Below are positions 73-5,682 of a DNA stretch of 37,862 nucleotides, one piece after another. The stretch comes from an uncultured Flavobacteriales bacterium (lineage in GTDB: Bacteria; Bacteroidota; Bacteroidia; Flavobacteriales; Schleiferiaceae). The notes beneath the pieces are model-generated. The model did not search any database and had not been told where the DNA came from. It saw only the letters and a program-made list of their open reading frames with translations. The stretch covers positions 1 to 37,862 of the forward strand of contig CALDGA010000254.1 of NCBI GenBank assembly GCA_937942085.1, read 5' to 3'. Within the stretch, counting starts at the first letter, position 1. Each line of letters opens with the position of its first letter. Both the position numbers and the translations under genes were made by a program.

Positions 73-1512
73 TCAGAAAATTTTGACAAAAATAAGTGCT
101 ATTAATGCGAAAACCAATGCCAAAAGCAATCCAATTTGCATGGGATCTTGTAAAACTATCCCTTTAGCACCAGTAATGGCCTGGGTTTGAAAGCCAACAG
201 CACGTTTATTTTGAAGGTAATAATCTGGACCTATGAGGGCTGGAATGTCCCAATTCACATTCCTATCGCGCATGATCCATTGGTGCAACGCTTTATAATA
301 GGGGTGCTCAACCTCTTGTGGCACAAAGCCTTGCTGATACAGTATCGCTCCCGAGGTACCGGATACAAAGCCTGCTATGGTCCCTTCAGGACTTGCCAGT
401 AGCGCATCCCAGGTCCCTTTCAGAACTGTGGATTTCTTTGGGCTGGGCCAATCATTTCGCAGAGAGGGTGCAATGAACTGCTCTGAATATAACGGGTGTT
501 CGAGTTGCGGGAGCACAGAAGTAAGGGTGTTCTCTGAGGAGTTTGAAGGAAAAACTAGGGCGTTATGGGCCAATTCTTCTAGTACCTCTGGCAAAAAATC
601 AAATCCGACGAGCACCAAGTTTTTAGGTTCTCCAAGGTTGGACCAGAGGTCGTTGGTGGTGTAGGGCAGCATAGAATCGGGGGCGAATACACGAACAAAA
701 TCCTTGACATTGCCAGCACCACGACCACTGACCAGCCAAGTTTCCCTAGTAGTGCCCACAGAAAAACTCAAGGCATTATCGGCAACTACGCTATCCGCTT
801 CCATACGCAGGGTGTAGAGCGAATCAGGGAGCAGGCCTTCCAACGGAATGCTAATTTCGTCGAGGTCTTGCCATTCCATTAGGCGCTGCCCACGTTGTTC
901 CAAATACCAATTCGTGGAGGTAGCTCCGCCCAATAATTGGACCCTAGCCATTTTTCCTTCGATACTTCCCAACATCCAAGCATTGCTCAATGAATCGCGT
1001 TCTGGTGCGAGAACATCCTTAAAGCCTAAAGGAATAGGCCCATACGCAGCCGTCATCAAAACTGCGGCAGAATCCATCTTCAACGGCATAGAGCTCGAAG
1101 GCCATTGCTCCATCAGTGCGGCAATGTTCGACTGGGCGATGTTCTCAAAGTGGGCTCCGTCTCTAGTGGTAATGTTGTAATTACCCGCTGGTAGCTTCTC
1201 GAGCAGTTCCTCCAACCAAGCGCCCTGTTGCCATAAGCCGGGGTGGTTATCAATGACCAATTCCTGTACTTGAACTCCAAAATTTGGGCGTCCCAAGGCA
1301 AAGATGACCGAGAGTATGGCGAGCGTTCTCATGGCCAGTACGATGAGATCTCGGAGTTTTTGTCGACGGCGCTCACTGGTTTTAAATGTGTTAAGCCACA
1401 TTAAGGACGGAATGGGCTTAGGTTTTCGAGGCCGCTTACCCATTAAATGTATAAGGGTGGGGAGCAGGGCAAGGGGCAGGGCCCATAATATGGTGGGAGA
1501 TTCGAATATCAT
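73..1512 (-). CDS. BatA-type membrane protein with periplasmic/soluble middle region
   Basis: The 479-residue protein begins with the BatA N-terminal domain (aerotolerance regulator N-terminal family). There is a membrane segment at about residues 5-24 containing PTLIHLMGKR, a basic loop with SERRRQKLRD, and a second segment at about 57-74. The long middle part (about 80-455) shows no recognisable von Willebrand or transglutaminase motif. A last membrane helix occupies about 458-479. In Flavobacteriia similar proteins commonly sit directly upstream of dihydroorotase, as here. The start overlaps the stop of the upstream gene by 4 bases, which suggests translational coupling. Its function is not known. 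A scaffold role in the envelope is only a guess. Confidence 0.8.
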   Translation of the reverse strand: MIFESPTILWALPLALLPTLIHLMGKRPRKPKPIPSLMWLNTFKTSERRRQKLRDLIVLAMRTLAILSVIFALGRPNFGVQVQELVIDNHPGLWQQGAWLEELLEKLPAGNYNITTRDGAHFENIAQSNIAALMEQWPSSSMPLKMDSAAVLMTAAYGPIPLGFKDVLAPERDSLSNAWMLGSIEGKMARVQLLGGATSTNWYLEQRGQRLMEWQDLDEISIPLEGLLPDSLYTLRMEADSVVADNALSFSVGTTRETWLVSGRGAGNVKDFVRVFAPDSMLPYTTNDLWSNLGEPKNLVLVGFDFLPEVLEELAHNALVFPSNSSENTLTSVLPQLEHPLYSEQFIAPSLRNDWPSPKKSTVLKGTWDALLASPEGTIAGFVSGTSGAILYQQGFVPQEVEHPYYKALHQWIMRDRNVNWDIPALIGPDYYLQNKRAVGFQTQAITGAKGIVLQDPMQIGLLLALVFALIALIFVKIF

Positions 1513-1937
1513 TGTTTGAGTTTGGCCCCCACTAGGGTGATGGGCAAATGCTCCGGTGAAGTATTCAAATCCAAGGTTCCTATGACCGTAATGACTTGGT
1601 CCGTGATGAGGTCCACAGGGCGCTCAAACTCTAATTCCATCACACTCTCAGGTCCCGCAGCACCGCAGAAGAAACAGCTTGAAAAGGGAAAGGCGCTCAA
1701 CGCATAAATATGATCGACAGGATCTAGAACGATGGCGTATCCCGTGATTTTCATTTCTTTTCCGTCCCAATTCGCTCGTTGTTCTGTAGACCACTGAGGG
1801 ACTTGGACCCAGGAGGCCGTGCCTTCGTCATATACTTCGGTGAAATCGATTTGCTCGAGAGCACTCCAGGACAGTCGCTCTTGCGCTACACCGCAGAAAC
1901 TAACGAAGAATAGCGCTATGAATACACCTGTTCTCAT
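1509..1937 (-). CDS. Exported CxxC protein, DUF3299-like (copy 2)
   Basis: This small exported protein of 142 residues has a signal peptide at about 1-18, ending GVAQ. Its core reads GYAIVLDP, then FSSCFFCGAAGPE with cysteines at about 88 and 91, then a beta-rich end. The layout (GY..P, a conserved cysteine, a following P and hydrophobic strand) resembles DUF3299 proteins, which in proteobacteria are encoded next to an ABC ATPase and an FtsX-like permease. It is a tandem paralogue of the gene immediately upstream and shares the SSCFFCG core and the downstream strand with 'TDQ' and 'G.L..N'. Starts and stops overlap by 4 bases on both sides. A role in metal handling by the neighbouring transporter is inference. 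Confidence 0.75.
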   Translation of the reverse strand: MRTGVFIALFFVSFCGVAQERLSWSALEQIDFTEVYDEGTASWVQVPQWSTEQRANWDGKEMKITGYAIVLDPVDHIYALSAFPFSSCFFCGAAGPESVMELEFERPVDLITDQVITVIGTLDLNTSPEHLPITLVGAKLKQ

Positions 1938-2353
1938 CCGTGGAATTCAGCTTGTTGAATGATGAAAAACAATCGGTACGGGTCCGTATCGTTGAACACG
2001 AGGATGCCCTTAATCACGACGAATTGGTCCGTGACTAAATGATCCGGCTGATCTTTAAAGACCAATTCCACTACGGTATTCGGCGCCGCATTTCCGCAGA
2101 AAAAACAACTCGAAAAGGCGTAGCGGCTCAACGCATATTGCTTGGTCGCCACATCTACCGGTACTAAATACCCTTGCAGTACCACCTCTTGATTCTTGTA
2201 GCTGTCCAGCCAAGAAGGGAATTGAGGTGCATACAACCCTTCGGGAGTCGTGCTGTAGGGCACGGCCAATAAATCCCAGGATACCACCTTCTGTCCCCAA
2301 GCAGTGACTTGAAGACCGGCAACCATCACGATGACCCAAGCCAAATTTCTCAT
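1934..2353 (-). CDS. Exported CxxC protein, DUF3299-like (copy 1)
   Basis: This 139-residue protein has a signal peptide at about 1-20, ending TAWGQ. The core contains GYLVPVDV at about 61 and then SSCFFCGNAAPN with cysteines 83 and 86. The paired cysteines could bind a metal or form a redox pair. No thioredoxin fold motif or haem CxxCH is seen. It lies directly after the permease gene, with ATGA overlaps at both ends, so permease and both CxxC proteins are probably made in step. The arrangement parallels the DUF3299 partner of proteobacterial FtsX-like transporter operons linked to zinc. That link is from family context, not from the sequence itself. Confidence 0.76.
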   Translation of the reverse strand: MRNLAWVIVMVAGLQVTAWGQKVVSWDLLAVPYSTTPEGLYAPQFPSWLDSYKNQEVVLQGYLVPVDVATKQYALSRYAFSSCFFCGNAAPNTVVELVFKDQPDHLVTDQFVVIKGILVFNDTDPYRLFFIIQQAEFHG

Positions 2354-3417
2354 GACTTTCTCAGTTTAATCCACAATAAACCCACAGCTAAGGCCACGGT
2401 CAATAACATTGCCATCCATTCCTCAACGATTGGCACCACACCGATCATCCCTTGAATGATCAGTGCTGAGCCCAACAATCCCAAAATCATAAGGACCATC
2501 ACATTGCCAAAGACCTGCACAAATATTGATGCAGTATTTCTATGGTGGTTACGCAAAAAGGCAATGGTATTGCGTTCCGAATGGTACAGGTTTGAGATAT
2601 AGGCAATAAACAAGAGTATTACTCCAGCGGCGATGATCCAAGACCAACGAGTTGCCTGATCTATGGTGGGTTGCCATTGTTTCTGCAACTGACCAAAAAT
2701 GAATACCGGGAAAGCCCCTTGTTCGTCCGTACGCTGACCGATAATATTTGGCAGCATGAGCATGGCCGCTTTCGACTTCAGTTTCAACATCACAGAGGTG
2801 TAGGATGGTTCCGCACTATGGTGCAAGGTCCAATAGGTTTGAGTAACCGTAAATAAGGCACTTTTATCAGCACTGCGTTCGGCTTCCACAATCCCAACCA
2901 CTTGCAGTGGGTGTTCGTGCGATTCGCCACGCGAATCGCTGCCGTGTGCCGAAGTGAGACTTGAACCTATACTCACTTGAAGTTGATCTGCTAAGGCAGC
3001 GTCCAATACCACCTCGCCTGAGGCGGCTGGTAAATGTCCTTGCTTCAATGTTAGACCGAACCAGGGATAGTAGGAACTATCCGTTCCCACCAATGGATGG
3101 CCTTGCACATTGTCGCCTAAGGCAATAGGAGTGGCCGTTGCCACAAGGGGATGTGTCTTCCAAAACTCGTAGGTAGCCGCTGTAATATTTCCCGTTGGGT
3201 TTTCGAGTCTATACAAAGAGCTCGCAACAATTTGAATAGGACTTCCCTTGTAACCAACAATCAAATCTACCTGGGACGCACTCTCTTCCCATTGGTGGAA
3301 AATATAATGCTCCATCGCACGAGGAGCCTTGATGAACACTCCCGTGATAAAGGCCAGTACCCCGACAATGAGCAGAGCAGCCCATTTGCGTTTCCATTGC
3401 ATCAACCACAAACTCAT
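2350..3417 (-). CDS. ABC transporter permease, MacB/FtsX-like
   Basis: The permease is 355 residues long with the FtsX/MacB layout. It has one N-terminal membrane helix (about 13-30), a large periplasmic domain (about 33-255) and three helices near the C-terminus (about 257-277, 300-325, 330-350). The periplasmic part begins with DLIVGYKGSPIQIV and LENPTGNI. The KGSP and PTGNI elements recur in permeases found beside DUF3299 genes. This type does not move a substrate through a channel like importers do, but transmits force to periplasmic partners. The two CxxC proteins downstream are obvious candidate partners. Its start overlaps the ATPase stop by 4 bases. The substrate is unknown. Confidence 0.85.
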   Translation of the reverse strand: MSLWLMQWKRKWAALLIVGVLAFITGVFIKAPRAMEHYIFHQWEESASQVDLIVGYKGSPIQIVASSLYRLENPTGNITAATYEFWKTHPLVATATPIALGDNVQGHPLVGTDSSYYPWFGLTLKQGHLPAASGEVVLDAALADQLQVSIGSSLTSAHGSDSRGESHEHPLQVVGIVEAERSADKSALFTVTQTYWTLHHSAEPSYTSVMLKLKSKAAMLMLPNIIGQRTDEQGAFPVFIFGQLQKQWQPTIDQATRWSWIIAAGVILLFIAYISNLYHSERNTIAFLRNHHRNTASIFVQVFGNVMVLMILGLLGSALIIQGMIGVVPIVEEWMAMLLTVALAVGLLWIKLRKS

Positions 3418-3947
3418 AAGGCAAGGGTTTTTACATGGTTGAATCTATCTTTCATACGCTGGTCGTGCGTGACCGCATAAATCCTGCCCTGAGGATGATC
3501 ACTTAACCATTGGTCTAAGAGTTCACAAGCCATCTCGGCCCAATCATCATCTAGTGCGCTGGTAGGCTCGTCCAATAATAGGGTGGAAGCGCCTTGGTTC
3601 ATGGCGAGTACGAGGGCGAACCGTTGCAACTGACCTATGCTGAGTTGATGTGGAAATCTGTATAGTAAGGGTCCAATTCCCAAAGCAACCGCATCCCGCT
3701 CAAAACCTTCTCGCGCCATCATGGACAATTGCTCCTGCATCGTGGCGTACTCAATCCATTGCGGATGTTGCGGCATGTGCGCCGTCACACCTTCTAAATC
3801 TGGTGAATTCTGAGCTTCTTGAGCCCCGTGAAGCACCCGAAGTAAGGTGGTTTTTCCCGTTCCTGATGCCCCTGTAATCAAGTGTAGGCCTGCACTAAGG
3901 TCAAGTGAGGGGTAGGAGATACTATGTTCTTCGAATGTGACGATCAT
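3414..3947 (-). CDS. ABC transporter ATP-binding subunit, compact
   Basis: This is the ATPase partner of the permease that follows it. It has Walker A GASGTGKTT, the signature variant LSIGQLQR, and Walker B LLLDEPTSALDD followed by the switch histidine in AVTHD. At 177 residues it is short for the family (usually 210-240), mainly through a short helical domain. I chose ATG at 3947, because it overlaps the TGA of the upstream DUF456 gene as ATGA, like the other junctions in this operon. A TTG fifteen bases further upstream is in frame but less likely. The Q-loop and D-loop regions look present, so the protein is probably active. Confidence 0.86.
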   Translation of the reverse strand: MIVTFEEHSISYPSLDLSAGLHLITGASGTGKTTLLRVLHGAQEAQNSPDLEGVTAHMPQHPQWIEYATMQEQLSMMAREGFERDAVALGIGPLLYRFPHQLSIGQLQRFALVLAMNQGASTLLLDEPTSALDDDWAEMACELLDQWLSDHPQGRIYAVTHDQRMKDRFNHVKTLAL

Positions 3948-4399
3948 GACATTACATTCCAATAATAAAGGATGGGCATCGCAATGGTATAGACCAATTT
4001 TATAACCATCCCAGTGAACAAACCCAGGACGGCCATAAAGGCACTTTTCAAGCTCTGCCCAGCATCCTTTTGTTCCATATACTCACCGATAAAGGCTCCC
4101 AAGAGTGCCCCTACAATCATAAAGGGTCCCGTGATCAATCCAACCAACAAACCAATGCCTGCACCAATGGCAGCTCGCTTTGACCCACCCCCAAGTTTGG
4201 TGAGGATGGAAGGCAGAAAATAATCGGCCACAAAAACTGCAACTCCAACAATTACCCAAATCCAAGTGTTGATGGTAAAACTTTCAGCTTCGTACATGCC
4301 TGCTACAAGCGCTGCGGCGGTGATCAAGGAACCGGGTAAAACGGGCAATACTGCGCCTACGATACCTGTGAGAAATAAGATGATGATGAGCAGTTCCAT
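3944..4399 (-). CDS. DUF456 family membrane protein
   Basis: The protein has 151 residues and is almost wholly hydrophobic. Several glycine-rich membrane segments are visible, with GAVLPVLPGSLI near the N-terminus and a repeat-like GAGIGLLVGLITGPF / GALLGAFIGEY in the middle, both typical of DUF456. It is the first gene of the minus-strand operon that carries the ABC transporter. The start codon is only 29 bases from the divergent exonuclease gene. The family has no established function. Co-transcription with the ABC genes is likely from the 4-base overlap but does not prove a shared task. Confidence 0.85.
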   Translation of the reverse strand: MELLIIILFLTGIVGAVLPVLPGSLITAAALVAGMYEAESFTINTWIWVIVGVAVFVADYFLPSILTKLGGGSKRAAIGAGIGLLVGLITGPFMIVGALLGAFIGEYMEQKDAGQSLKSAFMAVLGLFTGMVIKLVYTIAMPILYYWNVMS

Positions 4400-4428: not shown

Positions 4429-5682
4429 ATGAAGTATGTGGTCGTAGATATCGAAACAACCGGCGGAAAGCCCAATGGCAATGGGATTACGGAGATCGGT
4501 ATCGTACATGTCGAGCATAAAAAGATCACCCACCAATGGTCTACCTTAATCAACCCGTTACAATCCATTCCCTACAACATCCAAATGCTCACGGGCATCA
4601 ACGATGATATGGTCGCCGATGCGCCCACATTTGAGGAAGCCATACCGGAGCTTTTGAAACATTTGGAAGGAGATATTTTCGTGGCCCATTCGGTCAACTT
4701 TGACTACAGTTTTATCGATGCCGCCTTCCGTAAAGCGGACCAACCTTGGCGAATGCCGAAGCTGTGTACGGTGAAATACAGTAAAGCGGTGTTTCCTGAA
4801 TTTGGTCGCTATTCTTTGGCGCACTTATCTCGAGCCTTAGCAGTGGAGAACGACAATCCGCACCGGGCGTTGAGCGATGCCCTATGTGCCGCAGAGGTGC
4901 TGATCCATTGCTTGCACGGCGATTATGACGAGCAGCGGCTGAACGACCCGAAATTGGGCCTATTAAAGCGCATTCAAATGCCCGACAACATGCCGGCGCA
5001 TTACTACGACACCCTACCAAAATCACACGGGGTATACCAATTCCTCGATCAAATGGGACTTCCGCTTTATATCGGTAAGGCAAATAACATAAAATCCCGC
5101 ATCACCCAGCACTTCAGCACACAGCAGGGCAGTACCAAGTACCAGCGCCTCATGAAAGAGTGTTATTCCCTCAGCTACACGTCCCTGCCGAATGAAACGC
5201 TCGCGCTAGTGTACGAGGATCATTTAATACGTCAACATTGGCCAAAGCTGAATAAAGCGCAGAAAAAACAAGCTTTGAAATTTGGACTCTACACCTACAA
5301 AAATGGGAGAGGGGAGCTCAAATGTGTGGTACAGAAAGTCATTGGGGACGGGGCATTAGTAAGGTTTGGATCGTACCGCGCCGGCCAACAGTGGCTAGCC
5401 GCACTTCAGGACCAAGCCGCACGCGAAGAAATCAGCCTATCAGAGGCCCTTGAGCGTATTCAGGAGCAACAAGCCAAGAAGTTCCTCATTGATTTGAGCC
5501 CAGAACAAGGAGCGCTTTTCATTGAAAACGGGAGCATCACTGGCATCTACACAGACAACGATTTTTTGCACAACGAACAGTGGATACGGGAACACTTCAT
5601 CGCCGTTCAGCCGTCTCCCACAATCAATGCCATAGGAATGAAGCTGGTCGAGGACCGACCAGGCTCCATTATCCCAGTTTAA
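4429..5682 (+). CDS. DEDDh 3'-5' exonuclease fused to GIY-YIG nuclease domain
   Basis: This 417-residue fusion joins two nuclease domains. Residues 1-165 form a DnaQ-type exonuclease with DIET (D7, E9), FDYSF (D92) and the HRALSDA box (H145, D150), a full DEDDh set. Residues about 195-280 form a UvrC-like GIY-YIG domain with GVYQF, LYIGKA, R224 and E263 in VYEDHLI, so this active site is also complete. The last 140 residues are unassigned. The same fusion is widespread in Bacteroidota and is often labelled DNA polymerase III epsilon or exonuclease. A role in repair or proofreading is plausible. Its 3' end overlaps the convergent clpC stop by 4 bases. Confidence 0.88.
   Translation: MKYVVVDIETTGGKPNGNGITEIGIVHVEHKKITHQWSTLINPLQSIPYNIQMLTGINDDMVADAPTFEEAIPELLKHLEGDIFVAHSVNFDYSFIDAAFRKADQPWRMPKLCTVKYSKAVFPEFGRYSLAHLSRALAVENDNPHRALSDALCAAEVLIHCLHGDYDEQRLNDPKLGLLKRIQMPDNMPAHYYDTLPKSHGVYQFLDQMGLPLYIGKANNIKSRITQHFSTQQGSTKYQRLMKECYSLSYTSLPNETLALVYEDHLIRQHWPKLNKAQKKQALKFGLYTYKNGRGELKCVVQKVIGDGALVRFGSYRAGQQWLAALQDQAAREEISLSEALERIQEQQAKKFLIDLSPEQGALFIENGSITGIYTDNDFLHNEQWIREHFIAVQPSPTINAIGMKLVEDRPGSIIPV

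Follow-up and report, generated by a model that had tools for sequence, protein, structure and literature searches.

The stretch of DNA analysed here (the window; 37,862 nt from an uncultured marine Flavobacteriales bacterium of the family Schleiferiaceae) carries a compact minus-strand run of six genes. The run opens, as elsewhere in the genus, with a DUF456 membrane protein (3944..4399; PF04306, E 7.4e-26), continues with a short ABC ATPase (3414..3947; ABC_tran, E 8.3e-14), a MacB-type (type VII) permease of 355 aa (2350..3417; PF12704 MacB_PCD, E 3.5e-10) and two small exported paralogues, CxxC1 (1934..2353; 139 aa, with SSCFFCGN) and CxxC2 (1509..1937; 142 aa, with SSCFFCGA), and ends with a membrane protein having a BatA N-terminal domain (73..1512; PF07584, E 1.1e-15). 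Since each gene from DUF456 through BatA overlaps the next by 4 bases, start upon stop, translation along the run is probably coupled. The first of these overlaps is an ATGA in which the ATPase ATG at 3947 (giving a product of ~177 aa) meets the DUF456 stop; the list of open reading frames starts the ATPase at TTG 3962. All the parts that a first-pass annotation had named, an ATPase, a MacB-like permease and tandem exported proteins with SSCFFCG, are present as minus-strand reading frames. That annotation took 73-4399 as one ABC operon, which holds for the four core genes and not for the two at its ends: the DUF456 and BatA proteins, found by neighbourhood comparison without constant association with the system in other lineages, are local neighbours in the run and lie outside the system proper. 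Divergent from the run, across a 29-base gap, lies a gene that joins an exonuclease to a GIY-YIG nuclease domain (4429-5682).

The ATPase has the Walker A motif GASGTGKTT, an LSIGQ signature, LLLDEPTSALD as Walker B and an H-loop. Its partner has four predicted transmembrane helices and a large periplasmic domain, and the best Foldseek matches of its model (pLDDT 91) are MacB, LolE, LolC, HrtB and YbbP. Permease fold and presumed mechanotransmission are shared with MacAB-TolC, LolCDE and HrtBA. What sets the present system apart from these is a short ATPase that is separate, not fused as in MacAB, and the lack of a MacA- or TolC-like partner within the operon on Pfam scanning. Three periplasmic histidines of the permease, His158, His167 and His199 (window numbering), are kept in 46/46, 44/46 and 46/46 homologues respectively and have equivalents in the Zrg permeases that adjoin DUF3299 genes in Pseudomonas and Phaeobacter, whereas LolC and LolF, in the parts that align, have none of them. 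Such conservation makes the three a candidate metal site.

The CxxC proteins and DUF3299

CxxC1 and CxxC2 align over 89 aa with 40% identity (E 3e-19), and both begin with what reads as a signal-peptide-like segment. Scans against Pfam and NCBIfam assign them to no family, PF11736 (DUF3299) giving no match to either at E<=1, nor to anything else encoded in the window's genome (~72% complete). Profiles tell more. A CxxC family profile built from 20 members aligns with DUF3299 at hhalign E 9.8e-13 (probability 97.8), and one from 81 members at E 1.6e-13 (98.0); 11 of the 20 members match PF11736 individually at E<=1, the best at 7.6e-5, and one CFFC-bearing relative (L090) reaches 27.3 bits, the gathering cut-off being 22. 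Because the profiles match while direct scans fail, the CxxC proteins are best placed as a sister branch of DUF3299 and not as members of the Pfam family. The DUF3299 resemblance put forward at the outset accordingly survives at profile level (E ~1e-12 to 1e-13) and falls for the window proteins set directly against the Pfam model. That these proteins are homologous to DUF3299, and paired with ABC genes, we regard as nearly certain.

A phylum-wide PF11736 search returned a graded series of motifs: CFFCGGAGPE, CFFCMPGGPE, GCFFHMPGGP, GCMHVPPP and GCCYSVPPE. With DUF3299 (PA4066, PDB 4hsp) the window proteins share a GY-x-x-P core, the first cysteine, an OB-type fold and a place after the permease; they differ in being shorter, in the added second cysteine and in having CFFCGxxGPE where DUF3299, at the first cysteine, has C-x-H-x-PPP. 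The CxxC1 model (pLDDT 89) is mainly beta and OB-like, and its top PDB match is 4hsp (Foldseek E 1e-3; Z 8.8, rmsd 3.6, 112 residues aligned), with a Z that barely exceeds the 8.2 of unrelated OB folds. At the level of sequence, PDB searches with CxxC1 or with alignment A1 gave nothing meaningful, while the DUF3299 set A2 found PA4066/4hsp at E 2e-14. An oxidoreductase of the thioredoxin type, which the CxxC spacing might bring to mind, finds no support in the predicted OB-like fold, its OB-fold PDB matches or the Pfam scan, which gave no thioredoxin-family match.

Conservation of the cysteines was judged on a profile-based sample, the loci of alignment A3 having been picked by CFFCG and that alignment being biased for this purpose. 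The first cysteine is kept in all 64 relatives and the +3 position is Cys in 42 of them; the others have His, Ser, Val or Glu there. In relatives of the C-x-H type the histidine sits at +2, not +3, and in the GC[FY]FHMPGG proteins it replaces the second cysteine itself, with the same permease alongside. As the annotation had supposed, then, the cysteines are conserved, members of the family keeping both CFFCG motifs, and the second is a gain relative to DUF3299: the first is common to both groups and the second defines the CxxC branch.

There are indeed two tandem copies, but they are not a peculiarity of this genome. In the tree, whose deeper forks are poorly resolved and which has long branches, the CxxC1 proteins of the Schleiferiaceae family form their own clade (17 rows, 100/98) apart from CxxC2, which makes the duplication an old one; to judge by this topology it predates the radiation of the family and is family-wide. 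Tandem DUF3299 genes are likewise known from Vibrio vulnificus L4, where, in a comparison by description only, two genes listed as DUF3299 by the paper accompany an ABC permease and ATPase (PMC12777771).

Neighbourhoods in Bacteroidota

A CxxC match was found in 34 of 60 relative genomes, most congeners having two tandem copies in the order gyrA-clpC-exonuclease-DUF456-ATPase-permease-CxxC1-CxxC2-(hydrolase)-BatA. Kept as it is across genus and family, the two-copy arrangement is not a matter of chance. Other families of the order have ATPase and permease with a single CxxC gene. Most congeners and family members have the bracketed gene, which is alpha/beta-hydrolase-like, after CxxC2 and before BatA (for instance L031:7465-8445 and L037:5644-6648); it is missing from the window, at 1509-1512, and from genome G006.

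The recurrence of the pairing elsewhere in Bacteroidota, anticipated by the annotation, is borne out. Of 80 loci selected by the CxxC motif, 62 have the permease within 5 kb, and in the profile-based phylum sample it is immediately upstream of 26 of the 45 CxxC or CFFH proteins. In that sample, some of whose loci end early, 19 of 42 CxxC relatives have no permease directly upstream. The partner can also be multiplied further: in a genome of the same class (G136), four CxxC paralogues come after the ATPase and permease (L083:2996-7093), the CxxC run enclosing a Fur-family gene (3456-3908).

Zinc-type genes are found within 5 kb in 16 of the 80 motif-found loci (CobW in 9, MerC in 8, Fur in 5, DUF1826 in 3), with only one CobW and one DUF1826 farther away. 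A gene-count Fisher test of near versus far gives p 4.5e-5, a value that is only indicative because the loci are related by descent and the choice of gene families followed inspection of the data; GTP cyclohydrolase I alone has no enrichment, with 1 near and 3 far. The fullest case is in Reichenbachiella (L119), where Fur, MerC, GTP cyclohydrolase I (FolE), ATPase, permease and CxxC are followed by a CobW-like gene, PhoX and DUF1826. Across several lineages such Fur, MerC, CobW, DUF1826 and GTP cyclohydrolase I neighbours are a zinc-starvation signature. A Phaeobacter locus is comparable, with Fur-ZrgA-ATPase-permease-DUF3299.

Beside the window copy there is no zinc-type gene, its neighbours being housekeeping genes. 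Elsewhere in the same genome is a Fur-family gene whose product is 43% identical to that of the Fur-family gene inside the four-copy run just described, and no link between it and the operon was found. A TonB-dependent receptor whose sequence includes a His-rich stretch is encoded immediately upstream of it (L213:6938-9631, contig C202), the two forming a candidate zinc uptake locus. A CobW-family gene (L214, contig C23) was considered as a further zinc link and dropped, as its contig looks foreign: the gene stands among D-aminoacylase-like and TRAP-type genes, and C23 may be bin contamination.

Metal handling and its alternatives

The closest known relatives are ZrgABCDE of Vibrio and PA4063-PA4066 of Pseudomonas aeruginosa, both zinc-regulated (PMC9817125, PMC11481552, PMC9820375), in agreement with the annotation, which called the related proteobacterial operons zinc-linked. 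For these the proposed direction differs, import for Vibrio Zrg and export of pyochelin-cobalt for PA4063-4066 (PMC11481552). PA4066 has no evident zinc binding (PMC11481552), individual zrgE knockouts leave growth under zinc chelation unaffected (PMC9820375), and published work leaves the function of ZrgE/PA4066 itself unknown, zinc-controlled as the operon is. Common to Zrg and the system here are a separate ATPase, a four-helix MacB-type permease with the same three histidines, an exported DUF3299-related protein after it and, in several Bacteroidota, Fur-family or other zinc-type neighbours. The differences are a set of two (up to four) CxxC partners where Zrg has a single DUF3299 protein, the motif exchange considered above, zinc control that is known from Zrg only (a search of the literature for Bacteroidota gave nothing specific) and ZrgA, which is undetected here. 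On this last point the annotation, which saw no separate metal-binding partner, is in agreement with a PF10986 search of the window's own genome (~72% complete) and 39 relatives that gave no match; the model does find proteobacterial ZrgA, and the absence is not firm, the control genomes having been blank too.

From homology, gene pairing, Cys/His conservation and the zinc-type neighbours of other lineages, the four core genes probably encode the Zrg/PA4063-4066 system in a Bacteroidota variant in which the CxxC partners handle a metal, with zinc the favoured candidate, at the permease. Metal handling as such we likewise hold to be somewhat better than an even bet. Two ATPase and two permease subunits would form a MacB-type machine in which ATP hydrolysis moves the permease's periplasmic domain, and with this domain the exported CxxC proteins may be in working contact. 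The CFFCG motif would supply a pair of ligands, most likely for zinc, the thiolate site being completed by both paralogues together or by oligomers. Metal could then pass between that site and the conserved histidines, the ATPase driving either its loading or its release, and expression of the window copy might be under zinc control. Counting against this are zinc-type neighbours at no more than 16 of the 80 loci, in related, non-independent lineages, and at none of the genes next to the window copy, together with the PA4066 and zrgE findings cited above, the many CxxC relatives encoded alone and the narrow margin of the 4hsp match over other OB folds.

Were the CFFC motif instead a periplasmic disulfide or thiol switch, the ABC machine would act on disulfide-bearing envelope proteins or export a thiol, free of metal. 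The spacing typical of redox pairs and the export of both proteins would suit this, and yet the CxxC1 model is OB-like and not thioredoxin-like, other lineages have metal-homeostasis genes as neighbours, and a redoxin-like gene was noted, in a non-systematic look, near one locus only (L043). Further, the intermediates have His at the position of the second cysteine, an exchange that fits metal ligation better than a disulfide. Because of the fold and this exchange the thiol-switch proposal is placed behind metal handling, and we consider it improbable.

Overlapping with the favoured metal-handling scheme, and differing from it in cargo and direction, is export of a metallophore or metal complex with the CxxC proteins as accepting periplasmic adaptors. 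It is an unlikely alternative, to which the MacB-type fold of the permease and the phenotype of a PA4065 deletion in Pseudomonas (PMC11481552) lend weight, and from which the want, within the operon, of a metallophore synthesis gene and of any MacA- or TolC-like partner detracts. It is also rather unlikely, marginally more so, that the metal role has been lost in the Schleiferiaceae family, with the system now serving general envelope maintenance. The genus-wide gyrA-clpC-exonuclease-DUF456-ABC-CxxC-BatA arrangement, kept as it is with no zinc genes, is what one would then expect; continued conservation of the CFFCG motifs of both CxxC proteins and of the permease histidines is not.

Returning to metal handling, one can envisage a more specific and distinctly speculative form of it, in which CxxC1 and CxxC2 would be an obligate hetero-oligomer whose CFFCG motifs, from different chains, make a tetrathiolate zinc site exchanging with the permease histidine site. 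That would amount to an ATP-driven machine for periplasmic metal transfer with no classical solute-binding protein. Should the metal reading be true more generally, it would tie a so far uncharted side of zinc physiology in Bacteroidota to a non-classical ABC system. The conserved Cys pair, the His-for-Cys intermediates and the three permease histidines are specific residues to mutate in pursuit of ZrgE/PA4066-type function, and the widespread CxxC sister branch gives a concrete place to seek the metal site of the DUF3299 family.

Many class-level CxxC relatives have no ABC genes beside them. At two loci (L076:1212-4731 and L080:4597-8020) such an ABC-less protein is beside the gene for the glycine cleavage P-protein. 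At four loci, L137:15698-16102 and L120:10322-10726 giving the coordinates for two, a stand-alone CxxC gene and CobW flank a small lipoprotein-like gene that belongs to no Pfam family.
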